This document shows positions 3,952 through 14,736 of a stretch of 64,000 nt of DNA, piece by piece (position 1 is the stretch's first letter; every line of letters begins with the position of its first letter). The position numbers and the translations under genes are program-made. Below the pieces are notes generated by a model that saw only the letters and a list, made by a program, of their open reading frames with translations, made no database searches and had not been told where the DNA came from. This DNA is from Fusarium oxysporum f. sp. lycopersici 4287 (Eukaryota; Ascomycota; Sordariomycetes; Hypocreales; Nectriaceae). Location: contig NC_030991.1 in the NCBI RefSeq assembly GCF_000149955.1, positions 2,787,571 to 2,851,570 on the forward strand, written 5' to 3'.

Positions 3952-4296
3952 GTGGGGTGCGGGTTCAGCGTCAGTAATCTGTCATTGTAAATTTACTGAG
4001 AATAGCCAAAAATGGACTAAACGTGGCGCATGCACAGTGTACCAGCAGCCCCAATACGATCCCTGCCCTCCCTTAGCACTAACAGCACAAAAATGCTTGG
4101 AAACTCGGGCATCAATGGCCCCGTCTAATGACCAACTTCATTCATCCCGGTTTCTATTTCTGACAACCTATTTTTACCTAATGATTATATGTTTATATGC
4201 ACCCCATTCACAAATACAGAAAATACTCGTTGATTACTATGGCAGCTAGTTCGGTATACACTACGGCGGATATAGACCTTCAAGTAGAAATGGAGA
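3952..4296. other. Intergenic spacer
   Basis: Downstream flank of the minus-strand NLR1 gene. No gene recognised. Confidence 0.4.
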
Positions 4297-6501
4297 TCAA
4301 TCAAAGCCCCAACTCTTATGGGATCCCCATTTACGAAAGCGCCCAACCTTCCCGCGCATAACCTCTCGTAACGATCTATCCCGCAGCTTTCCTTCTTCCG
4401 ATTCGTGAACTTGCGTGACCGCCAAAGACTGGGCTGGTTCTATAAGATACGGTAATTGTTGTAGCGCCTCCCGTGTGGAGGCGAGGTATGCCACGCTCTG
4501 CATTGTATCCGGATGGTTTTCTCCAAGCACAAGGCAGCGAAGGTGGAAGGCGGTTTGGTGAAGCTGAAAGGCTTCGTCATATCGGCCCTGCTGATGGTAC
4601 GTCGCCGCGAGGTCCGCCATGCTGCTGATCGTATCTGGATGCTTCCCCCGAAGCACCCCTCGTCGCATTTCTAGTACTTCTTGGCAAATGTTTTCGGCCT
4701 CGGCATAACGGCCCTGCTGATGGTACGTCGTCGCAAGGTCCGCCATGCTCCTGATCGTATTTGGATGCTTCTCTCCAAGCACCTCTCGTCGCATTTCTAG
4801 TACTTCTCGGCAAATGCTTTGAGCCTCATCATATCGGCCCTGCACATGGTATGTCGCTGCAAGGTCCGCCATGCTTCTGATCGTATGTGCATGCTTTTCT
4901 CCAAGCACCTTCCGTCGAAGTTCTAATGCCCTTTTATCAACCGGCTCTTTCTCCCTCCACCGTTCTCGATCGTAAAGAAAATCCGATACTCTCTGGAATA
5001 AAGTTGCTGTCTCGATCTCCGTCCTGCTCACCTCCGCCCACTCCCCTACTCGTACAGCATGCGTCACATACTCCTCGCATTGTGCCCATGAAGTTGGTTG
5101 CGATGGCGGAAAAAGATCATCTACTATCTGTAGAGCTATGCCAGAATAGTATGCTTCGCTGTTCTCCGGTTCATTTACTGCACCTGGCGCCTTGCCCGTG
5201 GTCGTCTCTACCGAGCTGCTTATCCTCAACCCAAATCGTACGGCTTCTTGCACAAGCTTATGCATCTCATAACTTCGCCTGCTATCCTCCTTCCGACGTA
5301 GGCCAAGGAAAGAAAATTCGGTCAGACGGGTGACTGCTTCTAGAACCTCAAGCTCCGTAGCCTCTCCAGTTGACCTCTCGCCGCCAATGTTGTATCGACT
5401 AGCAGCTGCCGCCATCAATTCTTGCGTTATGTCCTGACTATCCAGATACGCAATCACATGGAGAATGCCGTACGACATCTCGCTCTCCGCTCGAATTCGC
5501 TCCGTCGAGATCCTCCAAGTCTCAAGCACGCTGTTCGATACCTCTGGCCGTCGGTGTCGGTCCGTGCCGCTCATTCTTAGCACTTCCCATCGGGTCTTGC
5601 CCTGCCTGAGGAGGTCTAGGTACTTCTCGGCTGACATTGACATACGCCTCATGTATACGCCGCCTTGCGAGATCGCTAAGGGTAAGCATCGTAACTCCTC
5701 CAATAGAGCGTCCACACTTGCCTCCCTCAAAGTCGACGGCTCATCTCTAGCTACTGCGAGAAGCGTCGTCGCCTCATCTATAACCATAGATCGCACCTCG
5801 ATACCGCGACGCGATCCAACGAGCGTGCCGGCGATACGCGCATCTCGACTCGTCCATAACACCGTCCCTTGCGATGTGCAAGGTACATATCTGTATAGAT
5901 TCTGGTTCTCGTTCGATCCTTCTCCCTTGAATTGTCGGCCCACTCCAAACAACCTCAGGTTATCAGCGTTGTCGAGGACCAGCAGCCATTTCGGCCGCCT
6001 TTCGATCTCATTGCGCACTGCATCGAGCAGATCCGTCCCGTCAAGCTGCTCGTCGACCCCGAGCTTCTTGCCGATCGTCTTATAATCGGCTAGAAAAGTC
6101 GTCTCACTGTCGGCATGCACCCAAAATACGCTGCATTCCTCGTCGGCGTCGCATCGTCGATATGCGTAATCTAGCGCGATCTGTGTCTTGCTTGGTTCGT
6201 TCCTCTGTTAGCCCTTTCGCTACACCGTAGTGTGCCGAGTGGAGACCTACCCTGATCCTCCCAAGCCCCAAAGCGCAGCGCTACGGGATCCCGGCGTCGG
6301 TGGCAAAAGCTTATCTAGTCTGTCGATGAAATGCCGACGATGGACCAGATCCTCGTTGCGGGGATACGGAATGACGCGAACGACTTCGGCATGGGCCGCT
6401 GGGTGGGGCAAGTGGTAATGGATATCCCCCTGGTTAATTCTGGCATTGTCGCCAAATCGGCTGCAAGTGACGCCGCGTCGGTGGAACGCTGGCTGATCCA
6501 T
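4297..6501 (-). CDS. NLR1: NB-ARC/TPR STAND receptor with N-terminal amyloid-type motif
   Basis: Two exons (6501-6251 and 6190-4297) joined by a 60-nt GTAGGT...AAG intron give 714 residues. The intron splits the codon of the last Gly of the Walker A loop (GLGGSGKTQ, about residues 79-87). Residues 14-30 read SRFGDNARINQGDIHYH, a motif also found in the neighbouring effector; no death or enzymatic domain precedes it. Then come the NB-ARC domain, Walker B (WLLVLDNADN), a TSRD sensor-like segment and a CLPLAIS (GLPL-type) segment, a winged-helix region, and about 3.5 TPR repeats of 42 residues (from residue ~516) with the HPxTIxSMADLAxTYHxQGRY pattern of kinesin-light-chain-type TPRs. Fungal STAND proteins sense ligands through such repeats and oligomerise through NB-ARC. 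The start was chosen at MDQPAF because it is the first ATG before the motif and parallels the start of NLR2. It is divergent from the effector, with 191 bp between start codons. Confidence 0.85.
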
Positions 6502-6692
6502 TTTGTTGCTAATTATTTTACAGCACCAATCTTCTGGAAGTCGCCAAATTTGTACAGTCTCACGTCCGGAGAGGGGTAGCAATAAGGCTGAGAACGTGAC
6601 GAGACACAGCCTCACTGATTGGTTAAAGACAGAGCGCATTGCCATCAGATGACCATAATCGTACTTTTACCTACCACCAACAGACTACAACA
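6502..6692. promoter_or_regulatory. Shared divergent promoter of NLR1 and effector
   Basis: The 191 bp between the NLR1 start codon (minus) and the effector start codon (plus) must hold both 5' leaders and promoters, which suggests co-regulation. No specific operator was identified. Confidence 0.5.
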
Positions 6693-7653
6693 ATGGTACT
6701 CACCTCTCGGCCTAGCTCTGATATAGGCTTCATTCGCTGATTTTTATCGCGCAGGCAGAGGCAATAGGAGCAGCGGCTAGCATCATCGGCATTATCGGTG
6801 CGGCATTTACTGTCATCCAGGAGATTCGAAGCGCGCGGGGCAGGGTCCAAGGCACATCCGAGACGCTGGATAATATGTCTAAGCATCTGGACGCTATCGA
6901 TGAATCACTTGGTCTTGTTCGCGAGGAAGAAAAGCTGCAAACGGCCAGGGTCGAACTGCAGGTGAAGGCCATCACCAACATTGCCACTGAGCTTAGATCA
7001 TTCCTGGATAACCTTGCTGCCAGGCAACGAGAGAAGGCCGTGTCACAGTTCTTCCACGCCCTTAAGTCGGGCGACAAGGACGACAAAAAGTTGCAAGGCA
7101 TCCTGGACCAGCTTGACCGGGCTCGTAATGAGCTCGGGTTGCGGATCTCGGTGGCTCAAGTCGGCTTGTTGGGAAACCTCCAAGACGGCTTTCGAGTTGC
7201 ATTCGGCGTTCTCGAGCAGACAAACACTAGGGTCAACAAAGTGCTCGGGATCAACTTGGCTCTTCTGGATATTGTGAAGAACCGAGCGCTGCAGCAGACA
7301 GGTCAGACATATATGTTAGTGATCGCACAAAACAGACCTACTGACGAGATTTCATAGCGGATGGATTCATACCAGTTAATGTTGCTGACATACTAGCGAT
7401 GGGAATGTCCGCCCCCGATAATACGACGAGCATGAGCAGCTCCAACGAGGTGAGGGAAACAAATATTTATGGCAATGTGACGCTTGGTCAGGCCCGAATA
7501 ATGACGGGCAATATTGGGGTAGAAGGTTGGCAGAAAATGGCAGGTCGCAAGACGACGATTGCCAACAATCAGTTCGGTCACGACGTCCGAATCATCACTG
7601 GTGACATGGGAGGGGAGGCGGCGAGGGGCTTCAACGATTCCTTCTGGAAGTGA
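6693..7653 (+). CDS. HET-S-like effector: SesA/HeLo-like domain plus two amyloid pseudo-repeats
   Basis: Three exons: 6693-6695 (the ATG alone), 6755-7301 and 7358-7653. Introns are 6696-6754 and 7302-7357 (the latter with a CTGAC branch). The frame closes to 281 residues, close to the 289 of HET-S. Residues 1 to ~190 start MAEAIGAAASIIGIIGAAF, a small-residue-rich hydrophobic N-terminal helix followed by amphipathic helices; this is the look of the SesA/HeLo-like domain at the front of fungal STAND-associated effectors, where the N-terminal helix acts on membranes. Residues ~212-241 and ~247-281 are two pseudo-repeats, NIYGNVTLGQARIMTGNIG and NNQFGHDVRIITGDMGG, each ending near an aromatic (W241; F275/F279/W280). 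This parallels the two HET-s prion-domain repeats and its terminal GFW. Expected role: membrane-damaging cell-death executor switched on by amyloid templating from NLR1. Domain assignment is by eye. Confidence 0.75.
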
Positions 7654-7835
7654 GATTATTAAAGTCTACGTTCGAGCATTGCTATTGAACCCGTTACCAC
7701 TAGTCATTTCCATCCGGAACTACTGTATCAGCATCGATCGCCCTGAACTATTCACAACGATAACTTTCTCCATGAGAAGACCACTGTCTCCGCAAAGCAG
7801 TGATTGCATAAGGTGCCGCAATAAATGCTCATAGA

Positions 7836-8068
7836 GAAAGGGATTCCACAGCGGTGCCCTCGAACTTAAGATAATCCAGGTAAGTCTCGAATTTTGGAAT
7901 ATGTAGCAGTATCGCTGTAAAATCACCTAGAAAGGCGCTGACGAACCAAGTATGCAGGCAGGTCAAAGTCATTCAACCGAGCGTGGCGTTGCGGACAACT
8001 TATTGGGAGATAGAGTTTGGATCAACCAAGGTGATGTGGGAGGAAACATGACATTTGGGCCTACGTGA
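7836..8068 (+). pseudogene. Orphan 3' exon with an amyloid-type motif
   Basis: A good intron (7880-7957: GTAAGT donor, CTGAC branch, TGCAG acceptor) joins a short open stretch to an exon at 7958-8068. The exon ends in TGA and encodes 36 residues containing DNLLGDRVWINQGDVGG, the same pattern as the effector and NLR motifs. No helical domain precedes it, because the upstream frame closes at ~7835. It is either the remnant of a second effector whose 5' end was lost or an alternative 3' exon of the effector gene. A mini-ORF starting at the ATG at 7952 is also possible. Confidence 0.55.
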
Positions 8069-8227
8069 AGCGTCTGATTTGACAGTTCCCTGAGGTCCGT
8101 TGTTGACTGTATATTCCGGTCAAAGTATGGCTTCGTCGAGAAGGTACGCCATTCCCTTCATGCAGTGATTATCTAGGGCTGAGTGTGGCTGAAGTCGGGC
8201 GTGTGGCTGGTTAAAGTGGTTTAGGTT

Positions 8228-8270
8228 CGTCATCCTGTCATCCTGTGATCATGTCATCCTGTCACCCTAG
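8228..8270. repeat. Short tandem GTCATCCT repeat
   Basis: Four to five imperfect octamer copies of GTCATCCT in about 40 bp of non-coding sequence. Confidence 0.7.
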
Positions 8271-8418
8271 CACCTGGCCCCGCCTTTATGAGTAATATTT
8301 AGCCTTGTAACTCAGGCTCACATACTTACACAAGCCAGGGTAGTTTGGGACCGACCACTTCTTTGTGTTTCCACTTTTCCCTCTTTTGTCTCGTTACCAA
8401 CATCCAGGAGCCATAACC

Positions 8419-8676
8419 TGTGACGAGGCTGGCGTGAAGCTGGAGATGACAGCACCGTACACGCCCGACACTAACCCGATTGAAGAGTACTTTGCTGAGA
8501 TGAAGGCTTATGTGAAGCTGCGGTGGGATGAGCACATCAGTCTCATCCAGAGAGATTTTGGATCCTATGTCAGGTCATGCGTGCAAACTGTAGGGGAACA
8601 CAGGCGAGCGCTGAGGGACACTTTCGTAATGCAGGACTGGCGGTTGAGCAACCTCTGTAGAGGCACGAGCCACTAG
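8419..8676 (+). pseudogene. DDE transposase C-terminal remnant
   Basis: The stretch from CDEAGVKLEMTAPYTPD through TNPIEEYFAEMKAYVK matches the end of the Tc1/mariner-type DDE_3 catalytic domain, where the final acidic residue lies in a PDxNPIE motif. It ends with a TAG at 8674-8676. The upstream frame lacks the first two catalytic aspartates, so this is a 3' fragment of an inactive DNA transposon. No terminal inverted repeat was found. Confidence 0.7.
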
Positions 8677-8784
8677 ACCTTAGAGACCACGCTAGACATT
8701 GTTTGTAGTTTAAGCTAGAGGGAAAGGAAATAAGGTGTGAGGCATAAAGCATGGGAGAGAAAACAAAATATGATCATCATTCTG

Positions 8785-10143
8785 CTACCCTAGAGCTTCC
8801 TCAATCCAACGTGGCACATCATTCATGAACGAAAGCGCAACCCCCAATTGAACTCCTCTGTCGGTGTAAAACTCAGCACCTACTTCAGAGTGGACATGCC
8901 TAAGATCGAGGCATGCCTCTCTTGTGATTTCGTAAGCACATCGAATGTTTTGCTGCCAACGAGGGCTATCCACTTGATCCTGTTGCCATTCGTGGTATCT
9001 TTCTAGAGCCTGGTTTCTCCGCATGGGGATGACAAGGTCGATCGGTCGCTGCCGAGTCGCCACCGACCCCTGCACTTCTCCCCGCGCTTCAGCATTGGAC
9101 TCGTTAAAAATCTCACCCTGATGCTGACCAGGATGACCAGGACAGGTGACGTTGATATTAATTGGAGACGAACTGTCAGATCTCTTACGCTTTAGCCTTC
9201 TTCGCTCCGAGCTCTCCTCTTCATTCTTGTAGATCACCTGGCGGATGTTTTCAGGCACGTCATCGTGCGTCCTCAGCAGATTTCCTTCCTCAGCAAAGTC
9301 AACAAGCATGCTCAGGATGTTAGTATCGAGCTTGTAGTGCTTCTTGCTCTCCGGATCACGCCAGCAATAGAACTGCGAGTTCACGCAAGGGACACCGGTG
9401 CAGTGCAGAAGCTCGTAGACTTCTTTCCACACGGGACGAGAGCCCGTCGACTCTTCCTGATCAGCAAGCAGTTGGTCTCTGGCAATGAGCTGTCGGCCTG
9501 TAGCCCCACGGCCGCGACTCCGGATAGTCGCAGCTGCCGGCTGCATGACCTCTTTATAAACAAAAGAGATATAAATTCTTAGCTTATTACCTTCACGGAA
9601 GAGAGGAGCCCAGCCTCTCAGCTTATCTTCTATCGTCCTTTAGTCCACAACGAGGCCATCAAAGCGCTTCCTCATGTTACGTTCACTACGTTTCTCTACG
9701 CTCACAATAACGGTTGTCTCATCAGATTCGTACCTCGGCTCGGGAAGTTTGTCCTTAACGGTCGTCGCTAAGTCGAGGCTTAGAAACTTGTCCCAGTAGG
9801 CACCGGGGGCAAGGGTCAGATTCTCCTCCGTGATCTCGACCAGCTTGGACAGTCTGCCCTTCTTAAGCTGAAGCTTCCATTCGATATCGTAGTGAATGCA
9901 CGTTGGATCGTCTTCGTCGTCTCGGAAGTTGGGGTCCCAATCACTTAGCCCAAGCAATGGCAGGCGTCTGTCTTGGAGAGGGGTGCCATAAGCGCGCGGA
10001 GTTTCGCAGGTCCGAAATGGCGGAGTTCGGCCATCAAGGTCAAACTCGCCATCCAAAGAGAAGGGGCTGTCGTTGGCACGGCGAGGATCGTAATCTGGCG
10101 CATACATGTCAGGCGAGAAGGAACATCGAGGAGGCAAACTCAT
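8785..10143 (-). pseudogene. Fungal protein of unknown function with one in-frame stop
   Basis: Exons 10143-9591 and 9551-8785 (39-nt intron, GTAATA...AAAG) total exactly 440 codons. The single internal TAA is at 9642-9640, between GLVVD and RTIEDKLRGWAPLFRE. The N-terminal part is acidic with SPDMY and DWDPNF segments. The middle has a Cys/Trp-containing segment (VPCVNSQFYCWRD) and a basic RRRLKRKRSDSSS stretch that could be a nuclear signal. The C-terminal ~90 residues (from DLVIPMRRNQAL to NDVPRWIEE) look like a domain met repeatedly in filamentous-fungal proteins of unknown function. I do not assign a role. The stop looks recent, because the reading frame is otherwise clean on both sides. 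Confidence 0.55.
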
Positions 10144-10619
10144 GGCGACGGCTGGCAGCGAGAAGGTGAGGAAGGACACTGGGCGAGACGAGGGGCAACC
10201 AGTAGGTGGGCAGGCCATTGCCAACAAAGAACAAAGGACACATTTCCTTCACGGTTGCCTAGAACACGTGACCATAAGCTCATCAGCAGGATGGAATGTT
10301 CAGACCTTGACTCAGGGCAACGGCGTGTTAAACGTTGGGGAAGAACCAACGGTGCGGCAAAAGTACAGTATCGAAATTGTTTTATTATTAGTACATATGG
10401 GTTCAAGCTGAAGACCCCGACACCTTAGACGAGATATGGTCATGCGCCTTGAAGCCAGGGCGAACAAAATCGAAGATGATGCGATGACGTAGGATCACGT
10501 GAGCGGCTGAAGTAAGGAATGTTGGTCTTTCAGCTTTCTGTGCTTTGTGCAATTGCAAACAATGCCAGAACCCCTCCTGTAAAGGTCCGTGGACCGATTG
10601 CAATTAAATCGACATCAGG
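10144..10619. promoter_or_regulatory. Divergent intergenic region upstream of NLR2
   Basis: 476 bp between the start of the unknown minus-strand gene and the NLR2 start codon. It should hold both promoters. No motif was identified. Confidence 0.35.
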
Positions 10620-13394
10620 ATGCCAGCACATTCACCGCATGAGCAACGCGAGGTCAGCCATAACCAGTTCCGCGACCATACTGTCATCCACCAGGGAAAC
10701 GTTCAAGGGAACGTCTACTACGGCGCGCCCCACCCGGCGGCCCGCGCCGAAGTCGTCCGCGTCATTCCATATCCCCGCAACGAGGATCTGGTCCATCGAC
10801 GGGATCTCATCGACAGACTAGATAAGCTTTTGCCATCGACGCTGGGATTGCGCAGTGCCGCGCTCTGGGGCCTAGGAGGATCGGGGTAGGTGTCCGCTTT
10901 CGGCATGGTACGATTGTCGCGAACGGGCTAACAGAGGAATGAATCAAGCAAGACACAGATCGCGCTAGACTACGCATATCGACGATGTGACGCCGACGAC
11001 GACTGCTACGTATTTTGGGTGCATGCCGACAGCGAAGCGACTTTCCTAGCCGATTATAAGACGATTGGCAAGAAGCTCGGGATCGACGAGCGGCTTGATG
11101 GGACAGACCTGCTCGATGCAGTGCGCAACGGGATTGAAGCTCGATCGAAATGGCTGATGATCCTCGATAACGCCGACAACCTGAGGTTATTTGGAGTGGG
11201 TCAAGTGAAAGGGGAAGGGATGGCCGAGAACCTATATAAATACATTCCTCATGCATTGCAAGGGACGGTGCTGTGGACAAGTCGAGACGCGCACATTGCA
11301 GGCACGCTTGTTGGAGCGCGACGTGGTGTCGAGGTGCAGTCCATGGCTGTAGATGAGGCAACAACACTTCTCGCAAGGGTCCGAGATGAGCCAATAAGTA
11401 CAGAGCAGGCAGTGGAGGAGGCAGGAGTGGATGCTCTTCTGCAGGAACTACAGTGCCTCCCGTTGGCGATCTCACAAGCCGGCGCATACATGCGGCGGAT
11501 GTCGATGACAGCCGAACAGTATCTGGATCTCCTCAGACAAGGCAAGACCCGATGGGAGGTGCTGAAGGTGAGCGATGCCGATCGACATCGACGACCGGAG
11601 GTATCGAACAGTGTGCTTGAGACGTGGAGGATCTCGATAGAGCGGATCCGAGTGGAGAGCGAGACATCATACCGGATATTACACGTGGTTGCGTATGTGG
11701 ACTGTCAAGACATACCTCACGAGCTAGTAGCAGCGACGGCTCGTCGATACGATAAAGAGGATGAAGAGGATGTCATTTCAACCGGACAAGTCTCAGACCT
11801 TGAGGTTTTGGAAGCAGCCACACGCCTGACAGAGTTTTCTTTCCTCAGCCTTCGCCAGACAGAGGATAGTGGGAGAAGGTACGAGATGCACAAGCTTGTG
11901 CAAGAGGCTATACGATATGGGCTGAGGGTGAGAGGCTCTGTAGCAACAACCATTGGCAATGCATTGAGGGCAGACGAGGGGCCAAAAGAGGATGAGGGAT
12001 ACTACTGTGGCAAGGCGCTGCAGGTAGTGGGCGACCTCTTCCCGTCATCAGAACCTACTACATGGGCACGATGCGAGGAGTACCTGACGCATGCCATTCA
12101 AGTAGGGGAGTGGGCGGAGGTAGGCGGGACAGAGACGGAGACAGCAAATTTACTTCAGAGAGTATCATACTTTCTTTATGAACGAGGTCGGTGGAGAGAG
12201 AAAGAGCCGGTAAACAGTCGGGCTTGGGGTCTGCGACGAGAGGTGCTCGGGGAGAAGCATCCTGATACAATCGACAGCATGGCAGACCTCGCGGCGACAT
12301 ACCATGCGCAGGGTCGATATGAGGAGGCCGAAGGCATCTACCAAGAAGTACTAGAACTCCGACGAGATGTGCTCAGGGAGAAGCATCCAGATACGATCAG
12401 CAGCATGGCGGAACTCGCGGCGACATACCATGCGCAGGGTCGATATGAGGAGGCTGAGAAACTGAAAGATAAAGTACTGGAACTCCGACGAGAGGTGCTT
12501 GGGGAGAAGCATCCTGATACGATCAGCAGCATGGCGTCACTCGCGACGATATACCATGCGCAGGGCCGATATGAGGAGGCCGAAGGCATCTACCAAGAAG
12601 TATTAGACCTCCAACGAGATGTGCTCGGGGAGAAGCATCCTGATACGATCAGCAGCATGGCAGACCTCGCGGCGACATACCATGCTCAGGGCCGATATGA
12701 GAAGGCTGAGAAACTGAAAGATAAAGTACTGGAACTCCGACGAGATGTGCTCGGGGAGAAGCATCCAGATACGATCAGCAGCATGGCGTCACTCGCGACG
12801 ATATACCATGCGCAGGGCCGATATGAGGAGGCCGAAGGCATCTACCAAGAAGTATTAGACCTCCAACGAGATGTGCTCGGGGAGAAGCATCCTGATACGA
12901 TCAGCAGCATGGCAGACCTCGCGGCGACATACCATGCTCAGGGCCGATATGAGAAGGCTGAGAAACTGAAAGATAAAGTACTGGAACTCCGACGAGATGT
13001 GCTCGGGGAGAAGCATCCAGATACGATCAGCAGCATGGCGGAACTCGCGGCGACGTACCATAATCAGGGCCGATATGAGGAGGCCGAAGGCATCTACCAA
13101 GAAGTATTAGACCTCCAACGAGAGGTGCTTGGGGCGAAGCATCCAGATACGATCAGCAGCATGGCGTCACTCGCGGCGACATACCATGCGCAGGGCCGAT
13201 ATGAGGAGGCCGAAGGCATCTACCAAGAAGTATTAGACCTCCAACGAGATGTGCTCGGGGAGAAGCATCCAGATACAATACAGAGTATGGAGTATCTTGC
13301 CTCAATCCAGGAGGCTCTACAGCAGCTACCAAGTCTCAGAGTCAGTCCAGTCTCTAACAATCACAAAAGCGGACGAAAAGGAAGCCGAGTCTAA
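10620..13394 (+). CDS. NLR2: NB-ARC/TPR STAND receptor, paralogue of NLR1
   Basis: Exons 10620-10885 and 10949-13394 (63-nt intron, GTAGGT...AAG) give 903 residues. The intron splits the same Walker A Gly codon as in NLR1. Residues 15-34 read NQFRDHTVIHQGNVQGNVYY, an amyloid-type motif placed as in NLR1, again with no domain before it. NB-ARC follows: Walker A GLGGSGKTQ (84-92), Walker B LMILDNADN (158-166), TSRD, and CLPLAISQAG. From residue ~520 there are eight full and one partial 42-residue TPRs with the HPDTISSMAxLAATYHAQGRYEEAE pattern. The two NLRs are similar throughout, so they arose by duplication; NLR2 has more than twice the TPR number of NLR1. No intact effector adjoins NLR2. Predicted role: ligand-gated immune or incompatibility receptor. 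Confidence 0.85.
12240..13300 (+). repeat. Coding 126-bp TPR minisatellite with identical 252-bp units
   Basis: Eight 126-bp (42-codon) units follow one another inside NLR2. Two 252-bp dimers, 12531-12782 and 12783-13034, appear identical by eye, and their neighbours differ by few changes. Such internal identity is the hallmark of recent unequal exchange or conversion in NLR sensor repeats. Confidence 0.85.
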
Positions 13395-13861: not shown

Positions 13862-13881
13862 TGTATATATTTTAGCTAGAT

Positions 13882-14736
13882 ATGCTGAACAAGACTGAAA
13901 CACCACGGTCGTCGGTTCAATCGTATGCAGACGCAGCCAGGATGACATCCACCAGCATGTCCAGTCAATCTTCGTCTGTAGCCCGATCGGCAACTCCAGA
14001 ACCGGTGTTCTGCACAGTCGACACATCCAGAGTTCCTGAAGACCATCTTGGAGACGCTACACCAACAATGATTCGCAAGACCGTGGAGCAGGAGATGCGA
14101 CAGTCAAGTGACCAACCTCGCTGGCGATGCGTCGCAGTGACCAGAGATGGACGGAAGGCTAATCGCCTTAGGATTATAGGTAGGAACGAAGAAGAAATAC
14201 AGAAGATCAAGACCATCCTCGAAACCAGGAAAGCTCCAGGTGCAAGAGTCCTTCGAGATCAACTATATCCTATCAAAGTTGATAGCATGAATCGTATGGC
14301 CGTCTTTGACCAGGCGTTTAACATCCTCCCCGGAGCAATAGAAACCTTAAACCAGGAGAATGAAGTCCAGATTGCCAAGGTAGCCTGGCTGAGCCGAAAG
14401 GTCAACCCCAAGTCATATGGATCCATGGTGGTGTACCTCACTAAGAGCAGCGACGCCAAGAGACTACTGCAGGAACACTACTTTCTCGTCGCAGGTGAAT
14501 CGGCATACACGAGTGTATTTGAGCAGACCACTGGACCGGAACAATGCTATAACTGCCAAGAGCTCGGTCACAAGGCTTTCTCGTGCAGCAAGACTCGAGT
14601 ATGTGCAAGGTGCGCCACCGTGGGCCACCATCACAGTGAGTGCCAGGCGCAGATACCAAAGTGCGTCCTCTGCAGTGGTCCGCATGAGTCATTCAGTAGA
14701 AATTGCCTGAAACTCCACCCCAGGCGGCATGAGTAA
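13882..14736 (+). CDS. LINE ORF1, nucleic-acid-binding gag-like protein
   Basis: 284 residues from the first ATG to TAA. The end carries three Cys/His clusters starting [14 protein letters not shown], then [14 protein letters not shown] and [15 protein letters not shown], the zinc-knuckle array typical of LINE ORF1 proteins that bind the element RNA. The N-terminus is Ser/Thr-rich and may lack original sequence, since the element border is only 8 bp upstream. It overlaps ORF2 by 8 nt (ATGAGTAA). Confidence 0.8.

Follow-up and report, generated by a model that had tools for sequence, protein, structure and literature searches.

Do a receptor gene and the neighbouring gene read away from it in Fusarium oxysporum f. 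sp. lycopersici 4287 form an amyloid-signalling pair of the kind known from NWD2 and HET-S of Podospora anserina? The question is raised by a locus in a 64,000-nucleotide stretch of contig NC_030991.1 (positions 2,787,571 to 2,851,570; this whole stretch is called the window below), where a first-pass annotation had placed a nucleotide-binding oligomerization domain-like receptor (NLR), NLR1, head to head with a 281-residue effector. The most likely answer is that the locus is an NWD2/HET-S-type amyloid-signalling pair with a divergent HET-s-related motif. It is probable that the SesA/HeLo-like neighbour of the NLR is a killer protein, and that the activated receptor templates its repeats into a HET-s-like amyloid fold, which would free a predicted membrane-killing domain.

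The two genes are divergent, with 191 bases between them. NLR1 (714 aa; 4297..6501, minus strand; exons 6501-6251 and 6190-4297, intron 6250-6191) is identical to the deposited protein P0081, FOXG_16268, and the effector (281 aa; 6693..7653, plus strand; ATG 6693-6695, exons 6755-7301 and 7358-7653) is letter for letter the deposited FOXG_16109 of F. oxysporum f. sp. lycopersici, which confirms the arrangement described at first. The second intron of the effector has an unusual GTCAG donor, and it is this splice variant that yields the deposited protein. In NLR1 the P-loop GGSGKT spans the intron. Pfam matches identify a P-loop NTPase (AAA/NB-ARC), DUF7779 and C-terminal TPR, and NB-ARC is also precomputed for P0081. 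NLR1 turned out to lack a death domain, as had been claimed: the sole element N-terminal to the nucleotide-binding part is the motif region with the motif r0, RRGVTCSRFGDNARINQGDIH (6418..6480, minus strand), which occupies the usual place of a killer domain.

The effector ends in two pseudo-repeats, r1 ETNIYGNVTLGQARIMTGNIG (residues 216-236; 7456..7518, plus strand) and r2 KTTIANNQFGHDVRIITGDMG (residues 247-267; 7549..7611, plus strand), joined by a 10-residue loop with three Gly and followed by a tail, GGEAARGFNDSFWK (7612..7650, plus strand). The tail contains a diglycine and F...FW, its F-N-x-x-F-W is conserved, and its position is that of the HET-s tail. An hhalign comparison of the C-terminus with itself returned no repeat match, and for this reason a gapless shuffle test was used, in which the score of r1 against r2 exceeded all 20,000 shuffles. 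The extent and register of the motif were chosen by visual inspection ahead of the shuffle tests, and the position numbering follows that of the HET-s-related motifs (PMC4518210; this and the other papers given by PMC number are cited for passages of their text).

Is the receptor motif the same as that of the effector? When NLR1 is compared with nothing but the effector in a pairwise BLAST, the motif is matched with a non-significant E of 2.3, so the support for a match rests on family profiles. The effector has 79 homologues by protein search and 90 by profile search, in Fusarium, Monosporascus, Chaetomium, Staphylotrichum, Pleurostoma, Purpureocillium and other genera. Motif statistics were taken from 30 full-length homologues out of the 79, leaving out N-terminal fragments as well as gene models that were fused or altered, and from 55 of 56 receptor N-termini (24 of the NLR1 type and 31 of the type of NLR2, a second receptor in the window; P0131 was dropped for its N-terminal extension). 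This gives 115 motif copies, 60 effector repeats and 55 receptor motifs, which are not independent because many of the sequences are close relatives.

When the r0 profiles of NLR1 and NLR2 were slid along the effector family, r2 came first and r1 second, in register. The r2 score was reached by 1 (NLR1) and 2 (NLR2) of 5000 column shuffles (P 2e-4 and 4e-4), and the r1 score alone was not significant (P 0.21 and 0.08). The hhalign matches of the same two profiles to the effector family have E-values of 0.0017 and 0.0014. Gapless scores to the NLR1 and NLR2 motifs are 28.6 and 17.6 for r2 and 8.2 and 8.6 for r1; r0 is nearer to r2 than to r1 also in HRAM1 and HRAM4, two subfamilies of the HET-s-related amyloid motifs (HRAM; PMC4518210). 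The motif common to NLR1 and the effector, noted in the first-pass annotation, is thus recovered by both receptor profiles. A six-frame scan of the 64-kb window puts five motif copies at the top of 127,876 windows with scores of 29-41, the next score being 10.2; because these copies, or close homologues of them, went into the profile, the scan shows only that no sixth copy stands out.

The published HRAM pattern comprises two C-terminal pseudo-repeats of ~21 residues on a HeLo-related protein, with a loop of 6-18 residues, an invariant G19, a preference for R/K at position 15, hydrophobic residues at 5, 8, 16 and 18 (Gln 18 in HRAM4), a hydrophobic residue or Thr at 10, and N, Q or H at position 3 in HRAM1, 2 and 3 (PMC4518210, where 25 HRAM proteins, 22 HRAM1 and 3 HRAM2, are counted for F. 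oxysporum). The copies found here align without gaps, having Ile/Val at 5, Asn/Ser at 8, Phe or Thr at 10, Arg at 15 (except in most NLR2-type copies), Ile at 16 and Asp/Asn at 20. Gly 19 is present in 60 of 60 effector repeats and 53 of 55 receptor motifs; positions 5 and 16 are hydrophobic, and position 10 is hydrophobic or Thr, in 115 of 115 copies each. R/K15 occurs in 29 of 30 r1, 23 of 30 r2, 22 of 24 NLR1-type r0 and 2 of 31 NLR2-type r0. Position 3 is never N or Q (0 of 115 each) and is H once (1/115). Position 18 is Thr, Gln, Leu or Met across the motif; among the receptors it is hydrophobic in 16/24 and Gln in 8/24 of the NLR1 type and Gln in 27/31 of the NLR2 type.

The motif was kept out of HRAM1-5 because positions 3, 8 and 18 break the described rules. 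Judged by these residues, it is a variant that fits none of the subfamilies described in that text, which does not make this a proven first report. The literature searched does not mention FOXG_16109 or FOXG_16269, and the motif is not described in the passages of the amyloid-signalling papers that were covered; their logos and supplements lay outside the scope, so that an overlap with NLR34 (PMC9815663) or with one of the file S1 sequences of PMC4518210 is possible.

A link to HET-s itself is provided by other loci of the same genome, scanned in regions that were picked from protein and DNA matches and cover a small part of it. The Pfam model of the HET-s prion domain, PF11558, matches two distinct HET-S homologues (L027, and L028, whose protein recurs at L029) and, below its cut-off, the receptor beside the L027 homologue (L030). 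The motif profile, built without HET-s, has as its top windows exactly the two repeats in the HET-S homologues and r0 in the receptors that go with them, in the R/K15-G19 register. An equal rank result was obtained with 3, 10, 103 and 77 of 5000 shuffled profiles for the individual proteins and with 0 of 5000 for all four jointly; the register for this test was fixed after the score tests had been viewed. The score tests of the profile against the HET-S homologues and receptors gave P values of 0.19, 0.016, 0.017 and 0.054, and since these are modest it is the rank test that carries the link. The gapless in-register alignment with HET-s-type repeats makes "divergent HET-s-related motif" a better name than a wholly distinct family. 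Of the earlier suggestion of a distinct amyloid family, what stands is that the motif fits none of HRAM1-5 by the described rules; its separateness from the HET-s-type repeats does not.

The design is also that of NWD2/HET-S (HRAM1), in line with the initial proposal. In both cases a receptor with no killer domain and a single N-terminal motif adjoins a HeLo-type protein with two ~21-residue repeats, a short loop, G19 and a GG...FW tail, and r0 is nearer to r2 than to r1. Unlike HET-S, the effector has a SesA-like and not a canonical HeLo N-terminus, the receptor is NB-ARC/TPR instead of NACHT/WD, position 8 is polar, position 18 is Thr/Gln/Leu/Met, Asn 3 is missing, and two receptors stand beside the effector. 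Divergent HET-s-related motifs paired with NLRs are described for HRAM2-HRAM5 (PMC4518210) and HELLF/FNT1 (PMC7889193). HRAM4 shares Gln 18 with the r0 of many receptors examined here; by description, HRAM2-HRAM5 differ from the present motif, in which position 3 is never N/Q and only once H, and position 18 of the effector is Thr. HET-s is among the best-studied functional amyloids, and a family that keeps the register, G19 and the tail yet is polar at 8 and 18 would show the extent of fold drift compatible with signalling. It would also supply new motifs for cross-seeding.

Could the motif instead be a variant of sigma or PP, with no relation to HET-s? Sigma effectors are likewise SesA proteins, a sigma-type pair is present in this genome (C9, L026), and the sigma system (SesA/SesB/HET-eN; PMC3321046) resembles the present one in its SesA-type effector domain and its clustering with STAND (signal transduction ATPases with numerous domains) genes. 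The motifs, however, are unrelated by profile. PF17106 (NACHT_sigma) has two matches in the genome, both in the C9 sigma pair and none at this locus; the motif profile misses the C9 sigma motifs (P 0.57 and 0.11); and the GGTQN/GxGxQF submotifs given in PMC3321046 are missing. The PP consensus as printed in the same paper is missing too, and the published PP pattern FxGx(x)NxGLQLxGxNxGxL does not fit on inspection. A sigma or PP origin is therefore hardly credible. The GDQN motif, NxxxGxQYxxxGxGDQNxVSxxxxQxN (PMC12261475), was rejected by inspection as well. PP (HELLP/SBP/PNT1) and GDQN (Fo5176, PMC12261475) are also fungal NLR-effector pairs with a terminal motif in common, and in the GDQN pair of Fo5176 the motif is likewise carried by a SesA protein (PMC12261475).

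What would the effector do? Its helical N-terminal domain (residues ~1-180; 6693..7291, plus strand, split by intron 6696-6754) had been called SesA/HeLo-like. The effector itself reaches 16.0 bits against SesA (PF17107), under the Pfam gathering cut-off of 26.3, and a homologue of 192 aa without the C-terminal repeats, P0063, passes the cut-off with 30.5 bits; 19 of 26 family members match at E <= 1. The first helix is hydrophobic, and a four-helix MLKL-like fold is predicted. For the C-terminus, AlphaFold2 places strands at equivalent motif positions of r1 and r2 (mean predicted local distance difference test score 70), so that beta-arches are predicted. A Foldseek search of the r1/r2 model against 350,542 PDB chains has the HET-s amyloid 2rnm as its top match, with an E of 4.5 that alone is not significant. 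The modelling of the C-terminus that the first-pass annotation proposed gives strands in both repeats and a match to the HET-s fold that does not reach significance.

Other searches with the effector found little. Foldseek with the full model gave nothing at E <= 0.001, and no HET-s/HeLo chain was retrieved at E <= 10 when PDB sequences were searched with the effector, with its family or with the C-terminus. The C-terminal profile returned from the PDB a single non-significant acyltransferase (E 2.8), and the NCBIfam scan of the effector contained nothing close to cut-off. Neither the 7 families listed for the effector nor the 25 of 70 listed for its family include PF11558.

Conservation and gene order add to the picture. 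Among 16 diverse full-length homologues the mean identity is 71% in r1, 68% in r2, 65% in the tail, 54% in the N-terminal domain, 53% in the loop and 30% in the linker; r1 and r2 being the best-conserved parts of the effector suggests that selection guards the motif. For gene order, locus tags were read by eye from truncated names and consecutive tags taken as neighbours. An r0-bearing NLR has the neighbouring tag in 10 of 37 tagged effector homologues, all from Fusarium (P0002, P0004-P0007, P0009, P0012, P0013, P0016 and P0018). In four of them (P0004, P0009, P0012 and P0018) the effector stands between a class-1 and a class-2 receptor, the r0 class being assigned by N-termini.

Several observations weigh against an amyloid-signalling pair. 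PF11558 has no match to the effector C-terminus (E <= 5), the fold match of the C-terminal model to HET-s is weak, and unrelated helical bundles fit the N-terminus as well as MLKL does. The hhalign probabilities behind the r0 match are low (15 and 18%), and the single motif-profile scores against the HET-S homologues (P 0.19 and 0.016) are modest. In the motif, position 8 is hydrophobic in 0 and polar in 115 of 115 copies (Asn/Ser in 114), 58 of 60 effector repeats have Thr at 18, and R/K15 is missing from most NLR2-type r0. With a polar 8 and Thr 18, the core would differ from the HET-s pattern. A loose pattern recovers both repeats in 39 of the 79 homologues and a single repeat in 6; the 34 in which it recovers neither include many short predicted proteins. 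In a word-limited receptor search, 27 of the 37 tagged effectors, including all outside Fusarium, remained without a tag-adjacent receptor (P0001 is counted here despite its NLR1 neighbour in the window, because the tag of that neighbour was not printed). The same search found Trichoderma, Clonostachys and Conoideocrella r0 receptors with no tag-adjacent effector.

The polar core positions 8 and 18 could also suit a soluble contact, and the predicted beta-arches need no fibrils. The shared motif might then serve for docking: r0 would bind r1/r2 in a beta-arch complex of finite size, and the killer would be recruited or held back by it with no amyloid. This appears rather improbable, since the HET-s register match, the two repeats, the short Gly loop and the F/W tail mirror a known amyloid former (PMC4518210). 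In the preferred amyloid-signalling reading, the TPR region would bind a ligand, the receptor would oligomerise and cluster r0 into a seed, and the seed would grow onto r2 and r1 of the effector. The hydrophobic first helix would then be released, and the fungus's own membrane would be permeabilised.

The locus has a second receptor. NLR2 (NB-ARC/TPR, 903 aa; 10620..13394, plus strand; exons 10620-10885 and 10949-13394) carries the class-2 r0 QREVSHNQFRDHTVIHQGNVQ (10644..10706, plus strand), located by the motif profile scan. It is 70% identical to NLR1 across 663 residues, identical to a deposited protein of F. oxysporum Fo5176 (P0115) and 91% identical to FOXG_06903 (P0114). Both NLR1 and NLR2 probably signal to the one effector of the locus. 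Two receptors for one killer would be the reverse of PNT1, with its one receptor and two effectors (PMC5485727). A further receptor of the NLR1/NLR2 type, with r0 NSQFHDNTDIHQGNVQGNVYY, is present in two copies (L021/L022, on C15/C1); the search for effector matches found none on C15 nor at the L022 place on C1.

Downstream of the effector come a 38-aa open reading frame (ORF) (7952..8068, plus strand), a transposase fragment and NLR2, in this order. The ORF consists mainly of an r0-like motif, NLLGDRVWINQGDVGGN (7979-8041), and may be what is left of a receptor N-terminus, or else a free seed peptide. The transposase fragment, shortly 3' of it, is Tc1-like (DDE_3, under the Pfam cut-off). It is a tentative possibility that the locus represents a sixth, polar-core branch of the HET-s type, with one killer, two receptors (class-1 and class-2 r0) and possibly the 38-aa r0 peptide as third input, the cassette lying on a duplicated accessory-chromosome segment. 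If so, a strain that gains the segment from another would receive a self/non-self death switch along with it.

A second head-to-head system, apparently with a NACHT receptor, lies on C9 (L047, 4575-9819). Here an effector relative, 28% identical, faces receptor ORFs on the opposite strand; the match contains a single in-frame stop, just 5' of the codons at which its alignment begins, a place taken up by an intron in the window gene. Of the receptor ORFs, one has Pfam matches to NACHT and NPHP3_N (7504-9819), one has no Pfam match (6099-7478), and a third just upstream of them (5785-6114), taken as the first exon of the receptor, holds the r0-like GINFGNHARLHQGNI. With the combined profile this stretch is top of 19,678 six-frame windows; its score of 20.7 was reached by 0 of 2000 shuffled profiles (best shuffle 20.2), and the r2-like and r1-like stretches of the effector relative rank second and fourth. 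The r0-only profile ranks r0 first, r1-like fourth and r2-like fifth; the r1+r2-only profile ranks r2-like first and r0 second, with r1-like outside the top seven. All three stretches have Ile/Leu at position 8 and so look intermediate between the window motif and the described HRAM pattern. The profile search proposed in the first-pass annotation finds the repeats of the HET-S homologues and the C9 system. NLR2 as a motif carrier with a conserved receptor-effector-receptor order, the 38-aa ORF and the C9 system are additions to that annotation. Another diverged effector relative, on C1 (L048 4576-5355, minus strand), has an r1-like motif, and r2 is not among its top motif windows.

Cis and trans architectures of such domains have been described (PMC3321046). 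On C8, a receptor assembled from two ORFs joined at the P-loop junction (L050 2465-5001, minus strand) is 52% identical to NLR1 residues 42-588 and has the GLGGSG/KTQIAL ORF junction in common with it; in place of r0 it has a HeLo domain (PF14479, E 7e-49). Judging by these sequences, one receptor family in one genome has both a cis version, with HeLo on the receptor, and a trans version, with the motif, which opens the change from one to the other to direct study. On C12, a PigL_N (HeLo-like) ORF lies directly 5' of an NB-ARC-type receptor ORF with TPR-like repeats seen by eye.

These loci bear on whether the motif is simply a conserved linker before the fungal NB-ARC, its likeness to the effector being chance or a gene-fission relic with no signalling. 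The r0 of receptors for which no effector was found, such as P0101-P0103, would be expected of a linker. Against this, r2 is the best window in the shuffle tests, the C9 motif precedes a NACHT and not an NB-ARC receptor (if the exon is correctly assigned), and a HeLo domain takes the place of the motif in the C8 paralogue, all of which makes a mere linker very unlikely.

A 4.4-kb block (window 4000-8400) exists in three copies at 100% identity, one on C6 and two on C3, and weaker DNA matches link C6 to C3 across ~1 megabase. A transferable segment common to chromosomes 3 and 6 has been reported (PMC3599309), and it is plausible that the NLR/effector cassette lies inside it, which would tie fungal innate immunity to accessory-chromosome transfer. 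The three identical copies, the truncated r0 ORF with the adjoining piece of transposase, and the altered C-termini of some homologues might also be read as signs that the cassette has ceased to function and is decaying as a passenger in a duplicated accessory region. There is little chance of this, as the reading frames of NLR1, the effector and NLR2 are uninterrupted in the window, all three proteins are identical to deposited ones, and no other part is conserved as well across genera as the motif.

Between the effector and NLR2, the minus strand has ORFs of 284 and 202 aa (8785-10248) with no Pfam match at E <= 0.01. At 13876-14736 of the window there is a zinc-knuckle (CCHC) ORF, perhaps for a gag-like protein of a retroelement.

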